The position numbers and the translations under genes are program-made. From Hymenobacter tibetensis (GTDB lineage Bacteria > Bacteroidota > Bacteroidia > Cytophagales > Hymenobacteraceae): a stretch of 64,000 bases of DNA. The stretch is from NCBI RefSeq assembly GCF_022827545.1, contig NZ_CP094669.1, positions 5,635,001 through 5,699,000 on the forward strand. The letters are read 5' to 3'. Shown here piece by piece: positions 22,338 through 33,379 of the stretch (position 1 is the first letter of the stretch; the number at the start of each line of letters is the position of its first letter). The notes under the pieces were generated by a model. It saw only the letters and a program-made list of their open reading frames with translations. It ran no database searches and had not been told where the DNA came from.

Positions 22338-24842
22338 ATGGCACCGCAGTATCTCCGCACCGTTGTTGTCATTGGCAATGGCATGGTTGGTTACAAGTTT
22401 TGCGAGAAGCTTCTTGCTAAAACTTCCGCCTTTAAGCTGGTCGTTTTCGGGGAAGAGCCCCGCGTAGCGTACGACCGGGTGCATCTGAGCGAATATTTCG
22501 GGGGCAAAACCGCCGACGACCTGCAAATGGCGCCCTTACAGTGGTACGAGGAACACGGCATCACGCTGCACCTCGGCGACCCGGTGCAGGAAATCGACCG
22601 GAGCAGCCAAACGGTGCATTCGCGCGGCGGCCTGGTGCAACCCTACGACTACTTGGTGCTAGCCACCGGCTCATCGGCTTTCGTGCCCGACATTCCGGGG
22701 GTGGAAAAGGAAGGCGTGATAGTGTACCGCACCATTGAGGACTTAGAAGAAATTAAAGCGGCAGCCGCTACAGCCCGCACCGGGGCAGTGCTGGGCGGGG
22801 GCCTGCTGGGCCTGGAAGCCGCCAAGGCACTGCTCGATTTGGGTGTGCCGGAAACGCACGTAGTGGAATTTGCCCCACGGCTGATGCCTCGGCAAATAGA
22901 TGCCGCTGGCAGCCAGATGCTGCAAAGCAAGCTGGAAGCGCTGGGCCTACAGATTCATTTAAGCAAAGCCACGTCCAGCATTGGAGGCGAAGGCCGGATA
23001 GATGCGCTGCACTTCGGCGACGGCTCCATTCTGGAAGTGGATATGCTGGTGATTTCCGCTGGTATCCGGCCCCGCGACGAGCTGGCTAAGCTTTCGGGCC
23101 TAGAAGTGGGCATGCGGGGCGGCATCATCGTCAACGACGAGATGCAAACCAGCGACCCGTGCATCTTTGCCATCGGAGAGTGTGCCTTGCACAGCGGCAT
23201 GATTTACGGTCTGGTAGCTCCCGGCTACGACATGGCCGAGGTGGTAGCCAGCCAGCTCACCCAAGGCGCGCGCGCCTTCACCGGCTACGATATGAGCAGC
23301 AAGCTCAAGCTGATTAGCGTGGACGTGGCCAGCTTCGGCGACCCGTTTATTGCCGAGCCGCACAGCCGCTCCATCGTGTTCGAAGATGCGCATAATGGCG
23401 TGTACAAGCGCATCAACATCAGCCCCGATGGCAAGTACCTGCTTGGCGGCGTGCTCATCGGCGACGCCGAGGCCTACAACATGCTGCTGCAAACCGTAAA
23501 CAACAAAATCGTGCTGCCGCCGCATCCCGAGGACCTGATTCTGGGCGCCAGAGGCGGTGAAGCTGCGGAAGGTGCTGGGGTAATGAGTTTGCCCGAGGAA
23601 GCGCTGGTCTGTTCGTGCGAGGCCATAACCAAAGGCGCCATCTGCACTGCTGTGACCGAGCTGAACGTGACGTCGGTGGAGGGCATGAAGAAGTGCAACA
23701 AGGCCGGTACCGGCTGCGGCGGCTGCATCCCCATGGTCAAGGATTTGATTAATGGCACGCTCACCGCGCAGGGCGCCTACATCAAAAACGTGCTGTGCGA
23801 GCATTTCGACTATTCGCGCCAGGAGCTGTTCGACCTGTTCAAAATCAACGACATCCGCAGCTACGATGCCGCCCTCGACCATTTCGGGAAGGGCGACGGC
23901 TGCGAAACCTGCAAACCGGCCGTGGGCAGCATCTTGTCGGGCCTCTGGAACGACTTGGTGGTCAAGCACAACACCATTCAGGACACCAACGACCGGTACC
24001 TAGCCAACATCCAGAAGGGCGGCAGCTACTCGGTGGTGCCTCGAATTGCGGGCGGCGAGGTGACGCCCGAGAAATTGATTATAATTGGGTCGGTGGCCAA
24101 GAAATACGGTCTGTACACCAAGATTACCGGCGGCCAGCGTATTGATATGTTCGGGGCTCACGTCGGCGACTTGCCCGACATTTGGGAAGAGCTTATCAAT
24201 GCCGGTTTCGAGAGCGGACACGCCTACGGGAAGTCGTTGCGCACCGTGAAAAGCTGCGTGGGCAGCACCTGGTGCCGGTTTGGACTGCACGACAGCGTAT
24301 CGTTTGCCATCGAAATCGAGAACCGCTACAAGGGGATTCGCTCGCCCCATAAGCTGAAAAGCGGCGTGAGTGGCTGCGTGCGGGAGTGCGCCGAGGCGCA
24401 GGCCAAAGACTTCGGCATCATTGCCACCGAGAAAGGCTGGAACTTGTACGTGTGCGGCAACGGCGGCTCGAAGCCCCAGCATGCCCAGCTGCTCGCCACC
24501 GACCTCGACAGCGAAACCTGCCTGAAATACCTGGACCGGTTCCTGATGTTCTACATCAAAACCGCCGACCCGCTGGCCCGCACCGCCACCTGGCTCAACA
24601 AGATGGACGGCGGCATGGCTTACCTCAAAAACGTGATTATTAACGACAGCTTGGGCATCAACGACCAGCTGGAAGCGGAAATGCAGTTGCTCATCAACAC
24701 CTACCACTGCGAGTGGAAAGAGGTGGTGGAGAATCCCGAGCTGCGCAAGCAGTTTGCGCACTTCGTGAATGCGCCCAAGGAAAAAGACCCAACCGTAGCC
24801 TTCGAGCCGGTGCGGGGGCAAAAGGTGGTGAAGGCCTGGTAG
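22338..24842 (+). CDS. nirB: Nitrite reductase [NAD(P)H] large subunit
   Basis: An 834-residue cytoplasmic enzyme that reduces nitrite to ammonium with NirD. Domains are: a pyridine-nucleotide disulfide oxidoreductase (FAD/NAD) at about 1-400 (VVIGNGMVGYKF at the start, GGGLLGLEAAKAL for NADH); a BFD-like [2Fe-2S] domain from about 425 (VCSCEAITKGAIC ... CNKAGTGCGGC); then the ferredoxin-like half domain and the 4Fe-4S/siroheme module. The latter has an intact C-x5-C (KSCVGSTWC, Cys640/646) and C-x3-C (SGCVREC, about 680). The length is normal for NirB. ATG 22338 is the only sensible start. First gene of the assimilation locus; nirD follows after 151 nt. Confidence 0.96.
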   Translation: MAPQYLRTVVVIGNGMVGYKFCEKLLAKTSAFKLVVFGEEPRVAYDRVHLSEYFGGKTADDLQMAPLQWYEEHGITLHLGDPVQEIDRSSQTVHSRGGLVQPYDYLVLATGSSAFVPDIPGVEKEGVIVYRTIEDLEEIKAAAATARTGAVLGGGLLGLEAAKALLDLGVPETHVVEFAPRLMPRQIDAAGSQMLQSKLEALGLQIHLSKATSSIGGEGRIDALHFGDGSILEVDMLVISAGIRPRDELAKLSGLEVGMRGGIIVNDEMQTSDPCIFAIGECALHSGMIYGLVAPGYDMAEVVASQLTQGARAFTGYDMSSKLKLISVDVASFGDPFIAEPHSRSIVFEDAHNGVYKRINISPDGKYLLGGVLIGDAEAYNMLLQTVNNKIVLPPHPEDLILGARGGEAAEGAGVMSLPEEALVCSCEAITKGAICTAVTELNVTSVEGMKKCNKAGTGCGGCIPMVKDLINGTLTAQGAYIKNVLCEHFDYSRQELFDLFKINDIRSYDAALDHFGKGDGCETCKPAVGSILSGLWNDLVVKHNTIQDTNDRYLANIQKGGSYSVVPRIAGGEVTPEKLIIIGSVAKKYGLYTKITGGQRIDMFGAHVGDLPDIWEELINAGFESGHAYGKSLRTVKSCVGSTWCRFGLHDSVSFAIEIENRYKGIRSPHKLKSGVSGCVRECAEAQAKDFGIIATEKGWNLYVCGNGGSKPQHAQLLATDLDSETCLKYLDRFLMFYIKTADPLARTATWLNKMDGGMAYLKNVIINDSLGINDQLEAEMQLLINTYHCEWKEVVENPELRKQFAHFVNAPKEKDPTVAFEPVRGQKVVKAW

Positions 24843-24993: not shown

Positions 24994-25344
24994 ATGGAAA
25001 CTGTCATTGACATAGCATGGCTGCCCGTGTGCAAAACCACGGATATTCCGGCCGATGGCGGCGCTTGCGCCCTGGTAGAAGGCGAGCAGATAGCCATTTT
25101 CAACTTTGCCCGGCGCGGCGAGTGGTACGCCACCCAGAACCTATGCCCGCACAAGCAGCAAATGGCGTTGGCCCGCGGCATGATTGGCAGTACCGGCGAA
25201 GCGTGCGAGCCTAAAGTGGCTTGTCCGTTCCATAAGCGCACCTTTTCGCTGCTCACGGGCGAGTGCCTGAACGGCGACGAGTGCAGCATCCAAACCTACC
25301 CCATCAAGGTCGAGGGGGATGTCGTGTACATCGGTTGGGCGTGA
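24994..25344 (+). CDS. nirD: Nitrite reductase small subunit (Rieske-type)
   Basis: A 116-residue Rieske-fold subunit partnering NirB. Both metal-binding clusters are present: C-P-H in NLCPHKQQMALARG and C-P-F-H in VACPFHKRTFSLLTG. A [2Fe-2S] cluster could therefore be bound, unlike short NirD proteins that lack the ligands. Start ATG 24994 (METVIDIAWLPVCKTTDIP) matches the family. It lies between nirB and the NarK gene on the same strand. Confidence 0.93.
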   Translation: METVIDIAWLPVCKTTDIPADGGACALVEGEQIAIFNFARRGEWYATQNLCPHKQQMALARGMIGSTGEACEPKVACPFHKRTFSLLTGECLNGDECSIQTYPIKVEGDVVYIGWA

Positions 25345-25392
25345 TGCCGCCCGCTGCCTGCTTCACTTTCACCCGTACCCAACCTCTTGCTT

Positions 25393-26709
25393 ATGGACGC
25401 TCCACTTGCCAATCAGCAGCCGCTTAGCTACCTCAACATCTTCGCTACCAAGGGTGTGCAGATGCGCACGTTCCATCTGACCTGGCTTACGTTCTTCTTC
25501 TGCTTTTTCGGGTGGTTTGGAATTGCGCCCCTGATGCCGTTAGTGCGCGAGCAGCTGCACCTCGACAAAGGGCAGGTGGGCAACATCGTTATTGCGTCGG
25601 TGTCGGCTACTATTCTGGCGCGCCTGCTGATGGGCAAGCTCTGCGACACGCTGGGGCCGCGCCTGGCGTACACGCTGCTGCTGGTGGTGGGCGCTATTCC
25701 GGTGATGCTGATTGGGCTCAGCAACAGCTACGAAAGCTTTTTGCTGTTCCGTTTGGCCATTGGCATTATTGGGGCGTCGTTCGTTATCACGCAGTTTCAT
25801 ACTTCCATGATGTTTGCGCCCAACGTGGTGGGCACGGCCAATGCCGTAGCTGGCGGCTGGGGCAACCTGGGCGGGGGCATTGCCAATATGGCCATGCCGC
25901 TGGTAGCGGCGACTTTCGTGTCGTTGGGTTACGTGGACAAGGCCAACTCCTGGCGCTTGGCCATGGTGGTGCCCGGTTTGGTGCTGCTGCTGATGGCCTG
26001 GCTGTACTACCGCTACACCACCGACACGCCCCGCGGCAACTACGCCGACATCCAGCGCGCCACCGCCGAAAAGCCGAAGGGTACGTTTCTACTGGCCTTG
26101 CGCGACTACCGCACCTGGGTGCTGGCGTTGGCCTACGGGGCCTGCTTCGGCATCGAAATCACCATCGACAACGTGGCCGCGGTGTACTTCGTCGACCACT
26201 TTCAGGCGAGTTTGGTAATGGCGGGCATGCTGGCGGGCATCTTCGGCTTCATGAACATTTTTGCCCGCGGCCTGGGCGGCTGGGTCAGCGACCGGGCCGG
26301 GCGCGCCTACGGCTTGAAAGGCAAATGGCTGCTGCTGAGTGGGCTGCTAGTACTGGAAGGCATTGGTATTGTGCTGTTTGCGCTAGCTCCTAGTCTGCCG
26401 TTGGCTATTGCCGCCATGCTCGGGTTTGCCTTGTTTCTGAAAATGGCCAATGGCTGCACCTACTCCATTGTGCCGTTCGTCAACAAGAAAGCCATGGGCA
26501 GCGTGAGCGGCGTGGTAGGCGCGGGTGGCAACCTGGGTGCTATGCTGGTGGGCTTCCTGTTTAAGTCGGCTACCATCAGCTACACCACGGCGTTTTTGTA
26601 CATCGGGCTGGGGGTAGCGGCCGTGGGCGGACTGGTGCTGCTGGTACGGCTGGTGCGCAAAGAAATCGGCGAAGCCGCTCCGGAATCGTTAACGCTGGCC
26701 CGCGCCTAA
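25393..26709 (+). CDS. narK: Nitrate/nitrite transporter, NarK/NasA-type major facilitator
   Basis: A 438-residue polytopic membrane protein with twelve predicted helices. The N-terminus (RTFHLTWLTFFFCFFGWFGIAPLMPLVREQL), the nitrate-signature region AGGWGNLGGGIANMAMPLV, and the second signature VVGAGGNLGAMLVGFLF mark the nitrate-nitrite porter family. The conserved arginine of helix 2 (AR in SATILARLLMGKL) is present. Start ATG 25393 is chosen over an in-frame TTG two codons earlier. The locus context points to nitrate uptake for assimilation. Confidence 0.93.
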   Translation: MDAPLANQQPLSYLNIFATKGVQMRTFHLTWLTFFFCFFGWFGIAPLMPLVREQLHLDKGQVGNIVIASVSATILARLLMGKLCDTLGPRLAYTLLLVVGAIPVMLIGLSNSYESFLLFRLAIGIIGASFVITQFHTSMMFAPNVVGTANAVAGGWGNLGGGIANMAMPLVAATFVSLGYVDKANSWRLAMVVPGLVLLLMAWLYYRYTTDTPRGNYADIQRATAEKPKGTFLLALRDYRTWVLALAYGACFGIEITIDNVAAVYFVDHFQASLVMAGMLAGIFGFMNIFARGLGGWVSDRAGRAYGLKGKWLLLSGLLVLEGIGIVLFALAPSLPLAIAAMLGFALFLKMANGCTYSIVPFVNKKAMGSVSGVVGAGGNLGAMLVGFLFKSATISYTTAFLYIGLGVAAVGGLVLLVRLVRKEIGEAAPESLTLARA

Positions 26710-26750: not shown

Positions 26751-29700
26751 ATGTTGTTGCCTTCCGCCGCTGTACCTTCTGTTTGCTGCTACTGCGGCGT
26801 GGGCTGTGGGGTACTGGTTAAGCCGGAAAAGAACGGCGACGTATCGGTGGTAGGCAACCCCGACTACCCCGTCAACCGCGGCGCGCTGTGCAGCAAGGGC
26901 CTCAACCTGCACTACACCGTCAATGACCGGAGCGACCGGCTGCTGTACCCGCAGATGCGCTACAGCAAAAGCCGCCCGCTTCAGCGCGTAAGCTGGGACG
27001 AAGCGCTAGCGCGCACGGCAGCCGTATTCAAAACCTTTATTGCGCAGCACGGACCTGAATCGGTGGCCTTTTATGCCTCGGGGCAGTGCCTGACCGAAGA
27101 GTATTACGTGCTCAACAAGCTGATGAAAGGCTTCATCGGCAGCAACAACCTCGACACCAATTCGCGTCTGTGCATGAGCAGCGCGGTGGTCGGCTACAAA
27201 ATGGCTCTGGGCGAAGACAGCGTACCAGTATGCTACGACGACATTGAACTTGCTGACTGCCTGCTGGTAACCGGCGCCAACCCCGCTTGGTGCCACCCTA
27301 TTTTGTGGCGCCGCGTGGAAGCGCACAAAGCCGCTAACCCCGACACCAAGATTATCGTCGTTGATCCGCGCGTGACGGATACCTGCGCCTTGGCCGACGT
27401 GCATTTGCAGCTGATTCCGGGTACCGACGTGGTATTGAACCAAGCCCTGGCGCGGGCCCTAATAGAAAACGGCGACATCGACCTCTCATTCATCGAGCAG
27501 CACGCCGACGGCTTCGAGGAGTATCAGCGCCTGGTGTTCGAGCGTACTGTGGCGGAAGCGGCGCAGCTGTGCGGAGTGCCGGAAACTGATATTCGGCTGG
27601 CGGCCCGCTACATCGGGGCGGCCAAAGGCTTCGTTTCAATGTGGACCATGGGCCTCAACCAAAGCGTGGTAGGCGTGGATAAGAACCTGAGCTTGTTGAA
27701 TCTGCACCTGATTACGGGGCAGATTGGCAAGCCTGGTGCGGGCCCTCTTTCCCTCACCGGCCAGCCCAACGCCATGGGCGGGCGCGAAGTGGGGGGCCTG
27801 TCCAACCTGCTGCCGGCTCACCGCAACCTCGCCAACCCCGCGCACCGCGCCGAAGTACAGCAGTTTTGGGGTAGTGGCCCCTTGGCCGACAAGCCTGGCT
27901 TCACGGCTACCGAGATGTTTGAGGCGCTGGAAGACGGGCGCCTGAAAGCTATTTGGATACTCTGTACCAACCCGCTCACCAGCTTGCCCAACGTACGGCA
28001 AGCCGAAGCAGCTCTGGCCAAAGCCAAGTTTGTCGTGGTGCAAGACATCAGCAACAAGCCCGAAACCCTGGCCTATGCCGACGTGGTACTGCCCGCCGCT
28101 GCTTGGGCGGAAAAAGAGGGCACCATGACGAATTCGGAACGGCGCATCAGCTACTTGCCTCGGGTGGTAGCTGCTCCCGGCGAAGCCCTGCCCGATGCCG
28201 AAATCATCTGCCGTTTTGCCCAGGCCATGGGGTTTGCCGGCTTCGACTATGCCAGCCCCGAGGCCATCTACCAGGAGCATACCCGCCTGACGGCCGGCAC
28301 CACGCTTGATATTTCTGGGCTCAACTACTCTATTCTGCGCGAGTTAGGCTCGGTGCAGTGGCCCTACCGCGCCGGCCAGACTGCCCCCGGTACTCCCCGC
28401 CTCTTCACCGACCAGCAGTTCTACACCCCGTCCGGCCGGGCCATGATTCATCCGGTGGCCGCCGTGTTCCGCAGCGAAGTACCCGACGAGGCGTTCCCCT
28501 TCATTCTGACCACCGGCCGCATCCGGGACCAGTGGCACACCATGACCAAAACTGGGAAAGTCAGCAAGCTCAAGCAGCACCTGCCGCAGGCTTTCCTGGA
28601 GTTGCACCCGCAAGACGCCGCCGCTCTGGCAGTGGAAGAAGGCGACCTGGTGACGGTAGAGTCGCGGCGCGGGAGCGTGCGGGTGGCCGCGCGCCTGAGC
28701 AGTGGCATCCGGTCGGGGGTGGTGTTTTTGCCCATGCACTGGGGCAAGCAACTGGGCTCCGACCTGCACCGCGCCAACAACGTCACGTCAGGCGCAGTGG
28801 ACCCCATTTCCAAAGAGCCCGACTTCAAGTTTTGCGCGGTACAGCTAACCAAGTACCGCAAGCCCAAGCAGCGCATTGTAGTGGTAGGTGCGGGCGCGGG
28901 CGCGTATGGCTTTGTGAAAGCGTACCGCCAGCTGAAGCAGGACGACGACATCACCATCTTCAGCAAAGAAGACCTGCCCTTCTACAACCGCGTGATGCTG
29001 CCCGACTACATCAGCGGCCACCAGGATTGGGCGCAGCTCGTGAAGATGCGCGACGAAGAAGAGCCCACTTATAATATCTCGCTGCTGCGTGGGGTGAGCG
29101 TGGAATCGGTAAACCGGGCCGAAAAGTACGTGGTGGATTCTCGTGGCCAGCGCACCCCCTACGATGTGCTGATTTTGGCTACGGGCAGCCGCGCGGCCGT
29201 GCCCCGCAACGTGCCCACCCTACCCGGCATCTTCACGATGCGCAGCCGCACCGACGCCGACGAATTCAAAAGCCACCTGCCCGCTCAAGCGCATGTGGTG
29301 ATAGTGGGCGGCGGGTTGCTGGGGCTGGAGATGGCGGCTTCCCTGCGCGAAGTGGGCACTAAGATCTCGATTATCCAGCGTACCTCCCGCTTCCTCGACC
29401 GGCAGCTCGACCCCTTAGGCAGCCAGCTGCTCCAAGACGAAATGCGCGACCAAGGCTGCGACCTGTACTTCAACGACGAAGTGGAGCTGTACTACGGCCG
29501 CGCCCGCCTCACCGGCGTGGGCCTGAAAAGTGGCCGCCGCCTGGAATGCGACGCCCTGATTCTGGCCATCGGGACGGTGCCCAACCTGGAACTGGCCCGC
29601 GAGTGTGGCCTGGAGTGTCGGCGCGGCGTGGTGGTCAATGAGCGGCTCGAAACCAGTGACACGAGTGTTTTTGCGCTGGGCGAAATTGCTGAATTTCAAG

Positions 29701-30263
29701 GTGTACTCTACGGCATTACGGCCGCCGCCGAGCAGCAAGCGGCCGTGGTGGCGCGCTACCTCAGCGGCGACGTGGGCAGCCACTACCACGGCAGCACGTT
29801 CATGAACATCATCAAGATTCATGGCTTCGACTTGTGCAGCATTGGCCTGCCCGAATGCCCTGCTACCGGGGGCTACGAGGAAATTGTGTTCATCGACAAA
29901 GCCCAGCGCTACTACAAGAAGTGCATCATTCACCAAGACCGGCTGGTAGGCGCCATCCTGATTGGCGACAAAAACGAAATGCAGGAGTTCCGGGCCCTGA
30001 TTGCTAACAAAACCGAACTCAGCGACAAACGCTTGCGCCTGCTGCGTAGCGGCCAGCCCGCCGTACCGGTGCTAGGCAAGCTGGTGTGCAGCTGCAACAA
30101 CGTGGGCGCCGACAACCTACGCCATGCCATTGCCGCCGGGTGCGAAACCCTGCCGGCGCTATGCGCCAGCACGGGCGCGGGTACGGGCTGCGGCTCGTGC
30201 CGCCCCGAGGTCCAACGCATTCTGGCGGCTGAACTGGCGGTGCTGGCCCCCGTCATCACCTAA
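26751..30263 (+). CDS. nasA: Assimilatory nitrate reductase fused to NirB-like flavoprotein and [2Fe-2S] domain
   Basis: A 1170-residue fusion. Residues 1 to about 700 are a molybdopterin oxidoreductase of the NasA/NapA type: the N-terminal [4Fe-4S] motif C12-x2-C15-x3-C19, with the fourth Cys in GALCSKG; SNNLDTNSRLCMSSAV carrying a Cys suited to bind Mo; and a C-terminal molybdopterin-dinucleotide domain (LTTGRIRDQWHTMTKTG). From about 709 to 1105 a second module begins (RIVVVGAGAGAYGFVKAY) with two dinucleotide folds, like NirB's FAD/NAD part. Residues about 1110-1165 are a BFD-like [2Fe-2S] domain (LVCSCNNVGADN ... GTGCGSC). Electrons from NAD(P)H can thus reach the Mo site within one chain, replacing a separate NasB/NasC. 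It follows narK by 41 nt. Confidence 0.93.
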   Translation: MLLPSAAVPSVCCYCGVGCGVLVKPEKNGDVSVVGNPDYPVNRGALCSKGLNLHYTVNDRSDRLLYPQMRYSKSRPLQRVSWDEALARTAAVFKTFIAQHGPESVAFYASGQCLTEEYYVLNKLMKGFIGSNNLDTNSRLCMSSAVVGYKMALGEDSVPVCYDDIELADCLLVTGANPAWCHPILWRRVEAHKAANPDTKIIVVDPRVTDTCALADVHLQLIPGTDVVLNQALARALIENGDIDLSFIEQHADGFEEYQRLVFERTVAEAAQLCGVPETDIRLAARYIGAAKGFVSMWTMGLNQSVVGVDKNLSLLNLHLITGQIGKPGAGPLSLTGQPNAMGGREVGGLSNLLPAHRNLANPAHRAEVQQFWGSGPLADKPGFTATEMFEALEDGRLKAIWILCTNPLTSLPNVRQAEAALAKAKFVVVQDISNKPETLAYADVVLPAAAWAEKEGTMTNSERRISYLPRVVAAPGEALPDAEIICRFAQAMGFAGFDYASPEAIYQEHTRLTAGTTLDISGLNYSILRELGSVQWPYRAGQTAPGTPRLFTDQQFYTPSGRAMIHPVAAVFRSEVPDEAFPFILTTGRIRDQWHTMTKTGKVSKLKQHLPQAFLELHPQDAAALAVEEGDLVTVESRRGSVRVAARLSSGIRSGVVFLPMHWGKQLGSDLHRANNVTSGAVDPISKEPDFKFCAVQLTKYRKPKQRIVVVGAGAGAYGFVKAYRQLKQDDDITIFSKEDLPFYNRVMLPDYISGHQDWAQLVKMRDEEEPTYNISLLRGVSVESVNRAEKYVVDSRGQRTPYDVLILATGSRAAVPRNVPTLPGIFTMRSRTDADEFKSHLPAQAHVVIVGGGLLGLEMAASLREVGTKISIIQRTSRFLDRQLDPLGSQLLQDEMRDQGCDLYFNDEVELYYGRARLTGVGLKSGRRLECDALILAIGTVPNLELARECGLECRRGVVVNERLETSDTSVFALGEIAEFQGVLYGITAAAEQQAAVVARYLSGDVGSHYHGSTFMNIIKIHGFDLCSIGLPECPATGGYEEIVFIDKAQRYYKKCIIHQDRLVGAILIGDKNEMQEFRALIANKTELSDKRLRLLRSGQPAVPVLGKLVCSCNNVGADNLRHAIAAGCETLPALCASTGAGTGCGSCRPEVQRILAAELAVLAPVIT

Positions 30264-30307: not shown

Positions 30308-31807
30308 ATGACGCCCTCTGACTCCTCGCTTTCCATCGTCGCTGTGAACCTGCCGGGCGGTATTGTGCCGACCGGCGACCTGCTGGCCGTGCTGGCTGCG
30401 GCGGAGGCTGCCGGGATTGAGCACGTGCAACTGGGGCACCGTCAGCAGTTGTTGTTGGCGGTGGAGCCTGCCCGGCGCCGGGCGCTGCTGCAAGCCCTGG
30501 CAGCGGCCGGGGTGCTGGCCGAACCCGACCCCGAGGCCCACCCCAACATCGTCAGCTCCTATGTGGGCGAAGACGTGTTTTACAATGCGCCCTGGTTGCG
30601 GGAAGGGGTCTACAAGGATATTTTGGATTTGTTTGACTACCGGCCCCGCCTGAAAATCAACCTCGTAGACAGCCGTCAGACCTTCGTGCCGTTCTTTACG
30701 GGCCACCTGAATTTCATTGCTGCCGATACCAGTAACTACTGGCACCTCTACCTGCGCTTCCCCCGCACGGGCACCCTCTACGCCTGGCCTCACCTAGTGT
30801 ACTCCGAGGATGTGGCCGTGCTAAGTGCCGCCGTAGAGCGCGTGCTGCTAGCCGACCCGAAACAGTTTACGGACCCCACCACGGCCGGCGAACGGCTGCA
30901 CGCCCTAGTAAGTGCCGCGCAGCCCTTGGGGCCGCGGGTGGTGGCCGGGCCGCTGGCCTTGCCGGCCTTTATGCTCCCCTACTACGAAGGCTTCAACCGC
31001 AGCGGGCAACAGTTGTGGCTGGGCATCTATCGGCGCAACGAGCTGTTTGCCGTGGCTTTTTTGCAGGATTTGGGCCGGGTGTGCTTGCAAACCCGAGTAG
31101 GCCAGCTCTGCACCACGCCCTGGAAATCGTTGATAGTGAAAGGCATAGACCCCACCGACCGGGTGCTTTGGGACGCTGTGCTGTGTCGGCACCGCATCAA
31201 TGTACGGCACGCGGCCAACGAGCTGAACTGGCAGGTGGAAGACAGTTGCCCGCAAGGGGTGGCACTCAAGCACGAGCTAGTGCGCTACCTCAACGAGGAA
31301 GATGTGCGCACGTATCAGCTTTGCTTTGCCATCAAAACCCGGCCGCAAACCGGCTTGTTCTGTTCCATTGTGGTGCGCACCCAGGTGGAGCGCGCCAGTG
31401 AGCAGTACGAGATTCTGCACACCCGCGACTTCAACCCCAACTCCCGCGACTTCGTGCTGTTCCGCCAGCACGTGCGCCGCGACCGGCTAGGCTGGTACTT
31501 GGCCGAGCTTTGCCACCAGTTCTACGCCCAAGTAGGTGCCACTCTTGAACCCGCGGCCCCCGACACATTCCCCTCACCGCTTCCCGAGCATCCGGCCACC
31601 GTGGCCCCTCGCCTGCCTCGGTGCCGCCACTGCCTAACGGTGTACGACGTGGTGTACGGCGACCCAGCCCAGGCAGTAGCCGCCGGCACTCCCTGGGACA
31701 CGCTGCCCGACTATCACTGCCCGACGTGCGAAGCACCCGCTGCTGATTTCGAGTGGTGGGAAGAACCGATTACTGCCGGAAAGGAAACCCACGGGGCACT
31801 CACCTGA
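30308..31807 (+). CDS. Sulfite/nitrite-reductase-like protein with C-terminal rubredoxin domain
   Basis: A 499-residue protein. The N-terminal part (VNLPGGIVPTGDLLAVLAAAEAAG, then VQLGHRQQLLLAV) resembles the ferredoxin-like half domain of sulfite and nitrite reductases. The middle part (about 80-420) continues in a similar style, but I see no C-x5-C plus C-x3-C siroheme/[4Fe-4S] ligand set, so it is probably not a reductase itself. Residues about 437-485 form a rubredoxin: CRHC and CPTC pairs either side of TPWDTLPDYHCP, giving a Cys4 iron site. The gene lies 44 nt after the nitrate reductase and 44 nt before the siroheme dehydrogenase. Electron delivery to the nitrate or nitrite reductase is the natural inference; no biochemical role is established to my knowledge. 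Confidence 0.85.
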   Translation: MTPSDSSLSIVAVNLPGGIVPTGDLLAVLAAAEAAGIEHVQLGHRQQLLLAVEPARRRALLQALAAAGVLAEPDPEAHPNIVSSYVGEDVFYNAPWLREGVYKDILDLFDYRPRLKINLVDSRQTFVPFFTGHLNFIAADTSNYWHLYLRFPRTGTLYAWPHLVYSEDVAVLSAAVERVLLADPKQFTDPTTAGERLHALVSAAQPLGPRVVAGPLALPAFMLPYYEGFNRSGQQLWLGIYRRNELFAVAFLQDLGRVCLQTRVGQLCTTPWKSLIVKGIDPTDRVLWDAVLCRHRINVRHAANELNWQVEDSCPQGVALKHELVRYLNEEDVRTYQLCFAIKTRPQTGLFCSIVVRTQVERASEQYEILHTRDFNPNSRDFVLFRQHVRRDRLGWYLAELCHQFYAQVGATLEPAAPDTFPSPLPEHPATVAPRLPRCRHCLTVYDVVYGDPAQAVAAGTPWDTLPDYHCPTCEAPAADFEWWEEPITAGKETHGALT

Positions 31808-31851: not shown

Positions 31852-32565
31852 ATGTCTACCCTACCCATCGCCAACCCCCTCTTTCCGGTTTTTCTGAAGC
31901 TAGAGCAGCTTCGGGTGCTACTAGTAGGCGGCGGCAATGTGGGCCTCGAAAAGCTAACGGCTATTCTGCGCAGTAGCCCCGCCACCACCGTCACGGTGGT
32001 CAGCATCACATTTCTGCCGGAGCTGCGGGAGCTAGCCGCCCGGCACCCGGCCGTACAGCTGCACCAACAAGCGTACAACGATACGTTTCTGGACGACGCC
32101 GACGTGGTATTTGCCGCCACCGACGACCCCGCCCTGCACCGCCGCATCAAGGAAGCGGCCCGCACCCGCCGCCTGCTGGTGAACGTGGCCGATACCCCGC
32201 CGCTCTGCGACTTTTATTTGTCATCGGTCGTGCAGAAAGGTGCTTTGAAAGTGGCTGTATCCACCAACGGGCAGTCGCCGACGGTGGCCAAGCGGCTGCG
32301 GGCCGTCTTGGAAGAAGCCCTACCCGACGAGCTAGATGCCGTGCTGCAAAAGATGCCCGCTATTCGGCAGCAGCTAGCCGGCGACTTCGCCGAAAAAGTC
32401 CGGACCCTGAACGCCGTGACGGCTGGGCTGGCGGGTGGCCCCGGCTATGAAGCGCCCGCAACCCGGTGTTGGCGGCGCGTGGCCCTGGGAGCCCTGCTGG
32501 CCGCTGGCGCCTTAGCTGCGGCACGCTTCCTGCCGGCGCCGGAAGCTCGAAAAAACATCGAATAA
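31852..32565 (+). CDS. Precorrin-2 dehydrogenase / sirohydrochlorin synthesis (CysG N-domain type)
   Basis: A 237-residue protein that oxidises precorrin-2 to sirohydrochlorin with NAD, and may also chelate iron to give siroheme for NirB. The Rossmann motif VLLVGGGNVGLEKL near the N-terminus, then VFAATDDPALHRRIKEAA, VNVADTPPLCDFYLSSVV and VSTNGQSPTVAKRLR, are diagnostic. It lacks the methyltransferase half found in CysG, which is the next gene. Unusually, the C-terminus carries a hydrophobic stretch (RVALGALLAAGALAAARFL) that could be a membrane anchor. ATG 31852 fits the family start better than an upstream in-frame extension overlapping the preceding gene. Confidence 0.9.
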   Translation: MSTLPIANPLFPVFLKLEQLRVLLVGGGNVGLEKLTAILRSSPATTVTVVSITFLPELRELAARHPAVQLHQQAYNDTFLDDADVVFAATDDPALHRRIKEAARTRRLLVNVADTPPLCDFYLSSVVQKGALKVAVSTNGQSPTVAKRLRAVLEEALPDELDAVLQKMPAIRQQLAGDFAEKVRTLNAVTAGLAGGPGYEAPATRCWRRVALGALLAAGALAAARFLPAPEARKNIE

Positions 32566-32587
32566 CCCTGATAACGCTACCGTGAGT

Positions 32588-33379
32588 ATGGCTGACATTG
32601 TGCCGGAGTTGTATGTGGTAGGTGCCGGCCCCGGCGACCCAGAGTTGCTGACGATGAAGGCCTATAAGGTGCTGCAAACCGCGGCCGTTATCCTATATGA
32701 TAACCTCGCCAACCAGGAACTACTAGCGCTGGCCCCCGCCGCCTGCGAGTGTATCTACGTGGGCAAAAAGCCCTACGGCGACTACACGCCCCAGGAAACC
32801 ATCCACGAGCTTATTGTGGAAAAGGCACTGGCGCGGGGCCGCGTGATTCGCCTGAAAGGTGGCGACCCATTCATCTTCGGGCGCGGGTTTGAGGAGGTGT
32901 TGTTTGCCCGCGCCCATGGCATTGCTACCCACTACATTCCGGGCATTTCCAGCATGCAGGCCGTTGGCTTCGAAGACATTCCGCTTACGCACCGGGTGGT
33001 GAGCGAAGGCGTCTGGATGCTGACAGGCACCAAAAAAGACGGCAGCCTATCCGCCGACCTCCGGCTGGCCATGCAAAGCAACTCCACGGTGGTGGTGTAC
33101 ATGGGGCTCAAGAAAGCGGCGGAAATTGCGGCCACCTACTGCGAGATGGGCAAAGGCGACACGCCCGCCGCCATCATTCAGCACGTATCATTGCCCCACC
33201 GGAAACTAGCCGTGGGGCCGGTGCGGCAGCTGCCCGAACTAGTGGCCTCCCACGGCATCACCTACCCGGCACTCCTGGTGATTGGTGGCGTGGTAGCGCT
33301 GGGCCACAGTGCAGTGTGCGGCAAGCAGAACGCTACTACGCCAGCGCCTTGGCTATCAGCGCTTGTGCATCAGGCGTAA
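32588..33379 (+). CDS. cobA: Uroporphyrinogen-III C-methyltransferase
   Basis: A 263-residue SAM enzyme making precorrin-2, the first step towards siroheme. VVGAGPGDPELLTMKAYKVL, VIRLKGGDPFIFGRGFEE and YIPGISSMQA are the family signatures. ATG 32588 is used; GTG 32582, two codons earlier, is possible. It directly follows the dehydrogenase gene by 22 nt, so the two steps of siroheme synthesis are coupled to nitrite reductase. Its last 44 nt overlap the convergent DUF4202 gene. Confidence 0.95.
   Translation: MADIVPELYVVGAGPGDPELLTMKAYKVLQTAAVILYDNLANQELLALAPAACECIYVGKKPYGDYTPQETIHELIVEKALARGRVIRLKGGDPFIFGRGFEEVLFARAHGIATHYIPGISSMQAVGFEDIPLTHRVVSEGVWMLTGTKKDGSLSADLRLAMQSNSTVVVYMGLKKAAEIAATYCEMGKGDTPAAIIQHVSLPHRKLAVGPVRQLPELVASHGITYPALLVIGGVVALGHSAVCGKQNATTPAPWLSALVHQA

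Follow-up and report, generated by a model that had tools for sequence, protein, structure and literature searches.

A rubredoxin-tailed, nitrite/sulfite reductase-like protein encoded behind the fused assimilatory nitrate reductase of Bacteroidota, a probable helper of that enzyme

The nitrate gene cluster of Hymenobacter tibetensis

The window, that is, the whole 64,000-nt stretch of the Hymenobacter tibetensis genome that was analyzed, contains a nitrate gene cluster with an open reading frame (ORF) at 30308..31807 (+), whose 499-aa product is here named RUB. In many nitrate-using Bacteroidota, RUB probably assists the nitrate reductase, either by docking on it or by supplying it with electrons. 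The 499-residue ORF and its place in a nitrate gene cluster had been reported in an original prediction and were found to be real. The putative role given there, electron carrier or docking protein, is plausible.

The gene order is nirB-nirD-narK-nasA-RUB-(precorrin-2 dehydrogenase)-(uroporphyrinogen-III methyltransferase), with all genes on the + strand. RUB starts 44 nt past the end of NasA (30263), and the ATG of the precorrin-2 dehydrogenase (31852) lies 44 nt past RUB, both spacings being as predicted. NasA (26751..30263, +) is a fused assimilatory nitrate reductase with a [4Fe-4S]/Mo domain, a FAD module in which Pfam detected Rubredoxin_C, and a BFD [2Fe-2S] domain (Pfam, 2.3e-13). Upstream are located the large and small subunits of the NADH nitrite reductase, NirB (22338..24842, +; TIGR02374 above cut-off) and NirD (24994..25344, +; TIGR02378 above cut-off), and a NarK-type nitrate/nitrite transporter of the major facilitator superfamily (25387..26709, +; MFS_1), which scored 306.4 bits with TIGR00886, just below the cut-off of 311.7. 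Downstream are the siroheme synthesis genes for precorrin-2 dehydrogenase (31852..32565, +; TIGR01470 when translated from 31855, and Pfam) and uroporphyrinogen-III C-methyltransferase (32582..33379, +; TIGR01469 above cut-off, and Pfam).

The reductase-like body of RUB

Profile comparison and the predicted structure indicated that residues 9-413 (30332..31546, +) have the full two-half core fold of sulfite and nitrite reductases (SiR/NiR). The earlier description as sulfite-reductase-like was thus appropriate, but that of a half domain was not. NirA-type reductases were the nearest profile. Pfam NIR_SIR_ferr matched residues 9-67 (E 6.5e-7, above the curated cut-off), and none of the NCBIfam models reached its cut-off on RUB. 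A first structure model (37-row alignment, predicted template modelling score 0.54) was replaced by a later one.

The body carries no recognizable cofactor ligands, as had been proposed. In an alignment combining 22 of the 85 RUB rows with five NirA and five CysI sequences, none of the four [4Fe-4S]/siroheme ligand columns held a Cys in RUB: three were gaps in 22/22 rows and the fourth was Q, R, K, S, Y, D or N. No Cys was found within three columns of any SiR ligand column in these rows. Judged from the alignment and the model, the body is a nitrite/sulfite reductase whose cysteine-bearing cofactor loops have been lost. C314 and C339 were considered as ligands and rejected; both were invariant in the first 37 sequences, but Cys occurred at these positions in only 175 and 163 of the 286 unique RUB sequences that formed the conservation set.

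In the anion pocket, R45, the Arg of the TTRQ motif, was kept in 282/286 sequences, N80 in 285, K116 in 280 and N118 in 283, while P79 occupies the place of the second pocket Arg. The match of K116 to one or the other Lys of the SiR pair hinges on a one-residue gap. In the Escherichia coli and spinach enzymes, the basic residues of this pocket bind the anion. Sixteen polar body residues were conserved in at least 97% of the sequences, including R45, Q46, N80, K116, N118, Q124, N135, E227, R243, E305, K321 and T335. A CxxC in a body helix (residues 256-259, window position ~31231) lies off all SiR ligand columns; Cys 256 was present in 246/286 and Cys 259 in 278/286 sequences, and the window protein has G256.

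The sixteen conserved residues and the body CxxC would suit a cryptic enzyme or sensor, in which the pocket would still accept a ligand (nitrite, a tetrapyrrole or another metal) and rubredoxin electrons would serve to reduce or sense it. Rubredoxins are fused to N-oxide enzymes elsewhere, as in flavorubredoxin and class III HCP. However, the missing ligand cysteines, the variable C314 and C339 and the replacement of the second pocket Arg by P79 all argue against such an activity, which we regard as highly improbable.

The rubredoxin tail

Residues 434-486 (31607..31765, +) form a rubredoxin domain with Cys 439, 442, 471 and 474. Pfam Rubredoxin matched residues 438-481 (E 1.1e-11, above the curated cut-off), and both the CxxC...CxxC pattern and the rubredoxin fold were present. 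RUB is the only PF00301 rubredoxin match in the H. tibetensis genome. The original prediction had staked itself on conservation of the Cys pairs, and these were kept in 283, 285, 282 and 282 of the 286 sequences, respectively, with all four together in 282. The four sequences without the full set were a partial record (P0058), a Hymenobacter coccineus gene seen twice (L055, P0059) and the RUB of genome G126 (L006). The C terminus of the H. coccineus RUB (L055:10022-11434) diverges from the family ahead of the rubredoxin Cys; behind it, in a separate stretch, is a further match to RUB.

The residue after each CxxC was not Gly at either place in 244 of 284 sequences, including the window protein. 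In the Runella clade the rubredoxin loop is shortened and the four Cys are retained; a loss of rubredoxin in this clade, considered when PF00301 gave no matches, was therefore discarded. The replaced glycines in both knuckles and the short Runella loop with its four Cys would also be compatible with a structural zinc ribbon, RUB then being only a binding platform or regulator, but we consider this very unlikely.

Distribution and gene linkage

The observation is not a product of chance: of 7999 candidates scored, 1971 were homologous to RUB at E <= 1e-3. Among the 120 matches listed of these 1971, the named ones were from Bacteroidota except for three metagenome-assembled genome records labelled Janthinobacterium or Pyrinomonadaceae. 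Database labels were 'rubredoxin', 'rubredoxin domain-containing protein', 'rubredoxin-type Fe(Cys)4 protein' or 'hypothetical protein', and in one case 'rubredoxin/sulfite reductase beta subunit-like hemoprotein'.

Co-occurrence was analyzed in 296 genomes of the phylum, with E < 1e-50 taken as full-length RUB and more than 1000 residues as fused NasA, and in 251 genomes of the order; positives common to both samples were G000, G190, G194 and G249. RUB matches were found in 94 of the 296 phylum genomes, 23 at full length and 71 to the rubredoxin end only. Fused NasA was present in 27 and NirB in 22, and the same 22 carried RUB, NasA and NirB, so that 22 of the 23 RUB genomes had fused NasA. 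The 23rd, G126, had neither fused NasA nor full-length NirB, and its RUB has no rubredoxin. This RUB-like ORF (L116:63-1556) begins close behind a contig start. The order sample gave RUB in 89 genomes, NirB in 87, NasA in 89 and all three in 86, some counted matches being partial or split (e.g., G369, G374, G405, G418 and G425). Fused NasA was present in 87 of these 89 RUB genomes. RUB occurred without NasA in G395 (72% complete) and G494 (69% complete), and without NirB in G391 (84% complete) and G494. NasA occurred without RUB in G458 and G507; the gene after NasA in G458 is unreadable because the contig stops at the NasA 3' end, and G507 is a 970-contig assembly. Genome G457 encodes, besides a normal RUB, a second distant RUB-like protein (L135:7907-9322, 471 aa) matched only by the NIR_SIR_ferr family, with no nitrate genes beside it in the 16 kb seen.

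Gene linkage was determined at 80 named loci out of 396 confirmed. In 79 of the 80, RUB was the next gene downstream of the BFD end of NasA on the same strand, with measured gaps of up to 646 nt. The nitrate-gene association expected from the window therefore holds elsewhere, both in position and in the co-occurrence counts above. In the exception, L098, NasA is located on a different contig, and L098 itself contains a frame of 838 codons that is probably NirB; at L098:9995-12190, RUB stands apart from NasA and is followed by a TauE/SafE-type transporter gene. The gap between NasA and RUB was at most 60 nt in 66 of 95 loci with a start found, a count in which some regions were included twice and a few starts were miscalled. 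In six of the 80 loci (L033, L061, L065, L066, L070 and L108), the start and stop codons overlap by 4 nt, as in translational coupling. NasA and RUB trees (33 loci) were broadly alike, with the second copies of genus g200 (see below) and L117/L136 placed differently.

The siroheme genes behind RUB, as described for the window, are present there but do not form a general pattern. One or both of them came immediately after RUB, on its strand, in 14 of 17 Hymenobacter loci versus 0 of the other 63 named loci, as detected by tblastn with the window genes as queries, which may miss diverged copies. A methyltransferase gene was near RUB in other arrangements at L119, L121, L123, L137 and L140. Siroheme genes were thus rejected as core partners; the precorrin-2 dehydrogenase and uroporphyrinogen-III C-methyltransferase genes are neighbours outside the conserved association of RUB. 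Genes for outer-membrane-type Alginate_exp (PF13372) proteins were located in or beside three nitrate clusters (L127:8545-10074, L137:7312-8685 and L139:3486-4862), and these proteins are perhaps nitrate porins.

Paired second copies

Four genomes of one genus, g200 (G389, G427, G439 and G477), each encode NasA and RUB in two copies but NirB in a single one. The second fused NasA (NasA2; L127:13123-16494, L129:3100-6459, L131:2869-6240 and L133:4078-7569) stops before the BFD [2Fe-2S] domain and has its own RUB directly behind it. The NasA2 ORFs have 1119-1163 residues and retain the [4Fe-4S] motif. The Pfam matches of NasA2 in G389 comprised the Mo domain and the FAD domain with Rubredoxin_C, and BFD was absent. 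RUB2 starts 23-26 nt behind NasA2 and has the rubredoxin cysteines. NasA1 retains BFD. It is separated from RUB1 by an aldehyde dehydrogenase gene in G389. The seven NasA sequences off the strict BFD cysteine pattern comprised the four g200 NasA2 and three in which the domain has altered letters. The second RUB is paired with a second NasA and not with a second NirB, which favours NasA as the partner. The case of this one lineage suggests RUB as a possible substitute for the [2Fe-2S] domain of NasA.

The NasA2 operon of G389 also contains genes for an NMT1-type binding protein, a permease, an ATPase and a MoaA-type protein. The moaA gene behind RUB2 would fit a maturation factor, RUB aiding insertion of the molybdenum cofactor, Fe-S clusters or siroheme into NasA or NirB with rubredoxin as electron source. 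RUB adjoins nasA, and many reductase chaperone genes likewise adjoin reductase genes. There is also a precedent in a rubredoxin reported to be required for photosystem II accumulation (PMC3772215). However, siroheme genes directly behind RUB are confined to Hymenobacter among the named loci, and PF01077 (sulfite reductase) was matched in 140 of the 296 phylum genomes while RUB was found in 23. Sulfite reductase without RUB is therefore common, and RUB is dispensable for siroheme proteins as a class. A role in maturation appears quite unlikely.

A possible relay subunit of NasA

The reading we prefer, at a probability of roughly 45%, is that RUB serves the NADH-dependent assimilatory nitrate reductase as an accessory relay subunit. 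The metal-stripped body would dock on NasA. The rubredoxin, which its four Cys suggest carries iron, would relay single electrons from the NirB-like NADH/FAD module of NasA to the [4Fe-4S]/Mo domain, along a path NADH - FAD - rubredoxin - [4Fe-4S] - Mo. This module ends in a rubredoxin-reductase-type domain, and the relay may work beside or instead of the BFD [2Fe-2S] of NasA. RUB itself probably derives from a nitrite reductase of the NirA type that fell out of use where NirBD performs the nitrite step. Rubredoxin potentials near 0 mV fit nitrate reduction better than siroheme nitrite reduction.

Several lines of evidence point to such a relay: the position of RUB directly behind NasA, with 4-nt overlaps in six loci; the g200 NasA2 without BFD that has its own RUB2 beside a single NirB; Rubredoxin_C in NasA, together with RUB holding the only PF00301 rubredoxin of the genome; the RUB without rubredoxin in G126, which has neither NasA nor NirB; and the closeness of the body to NirA-type reductases.

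Other observations weigh against it. Rubredoxin_C was also found in NirB, so the domain does not single out the rubredoxin partner. The strict BFD cysteine pattern was kept in 91 of 98 NasA sequences, and NasA therefore looks self-sufficient. The BFD-less NasA2 is limited to one genus, in which the G477 copies look broken (RUB2 is split between two frames, while RUB1 stops short of the rubredoxin). With the Gly after the CxxC pairs lost, iron in RUB is not assured. Mirror-tree distances (38 loci) gave r 0.876 for RUB-NasA and 0.870 for RUB-NirB, which does not discriminate between the two. RUB also tracked NirB more strictly than NasA: no genome of either sample had NirB without RUB (22/22 in the phylum, 87/87 in the order), while five phylum genomes (G219, G050, G008, G155 and G179) had fused NasA without RUB. 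In family f53, RUB adjoins NirB, overlapping its end in G421 and lying 0.5 kb behind it in G394; in G343 of the same family, RUB sits between NasA and NirB.

The five genomes with fused NasA and no RUB had no NirB above the cut-off and encoded, no more than 3 kb from NasA, a NirA-type reductase (Pfam-checked in three). Beside NasA, Pfam identified a flavodoxin and a FAD reductase in G219 and a FAD reductase in G050. In the RUB-less clusters L111-L115 the NirA-type nitrite reductase has 590-675 codons, and beside it Pfam matched flavodoxin and FAD/NAD reductase in L111 and FAD/NAD reductase in L112.

The strict tracking of NirB, the five RUB-less genomes with NirA in place of full NirB, the f53 arrangement and the retained R45, N80 and K116 would all agree with a scaffold, in which the dead nitrite reductase body bridges NasA and NirBD for the hand-over of nitrite and the rubredoxin serves as a module for docking or control. 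However, NasA, NirB and RUB belong to one pathway and would be gained or lost together in any case; co-occurrence alone cannot name the partner. The second RUB of g200 accompanies a second NasA and no second NirB. We consider the scaffold unlikely. A broader form of the relay reading, in which a former siroheme nitrite reductase, its catalytic metals lost and a rubredoxin fused to it, is a new NADH nitrate reductase relay subunit that can replace the [2Fe-2S] domain of the enzyme and is used throughout Bacteroidota nitrate assimilation where ammonium is made by NirBD and not by NirA, is doubtful.

Comparison with known systems

No description of RUB was found among the open-access papers listed; one may exist, most of the subscription literature lying outside that search. 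In the part of a Pedobacter genome report cited here, on a strain that may or may not encode RUB, only narB and nirBD were named (PMC4642753). If the relay reading is true, RUB would represent a pseudoenzyme derived from a siroheme reductase and converted to electron transport, and would add a so far unnamed component to nitrate assimilation in many Bacteroidota.

RUB shares the two-half SiR/NiR core with NirA and E. coli SiRHP/CysI but differs from them in having no Cys at the four [4Fe-4S]/siroheme columns and in its C-terminal rubredoxin; it also does not have the N-terminal stretch of NirA. In flavorubredoxin NorV, class III HCP and the AlkB-rubredoxin (AlkG) fusion, the last as outlined in PMC10113152, a rubredoxin-fold Cys4 domain is likewise fused to a larger protein. 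Unlike in these, the partner domain in RUB has no catalytic metals of its own, and the Gly after both CxxC is usually replaced.

In assimilatory nitrate reductases of the Klebsiella type, NasC is the electron-transfer flavoprotein. In mycobacteria, the diflavin part of NasN has the electron-transfer function, according to two reports (PMC7816997, PMC11162112). RUB would likewise feed electrons to the Mo domain. In contrast to both flavoproteins, the flavin module is already inside NasA, and what is added to it is a metal-stripped reductase carrying a rubredoxin.
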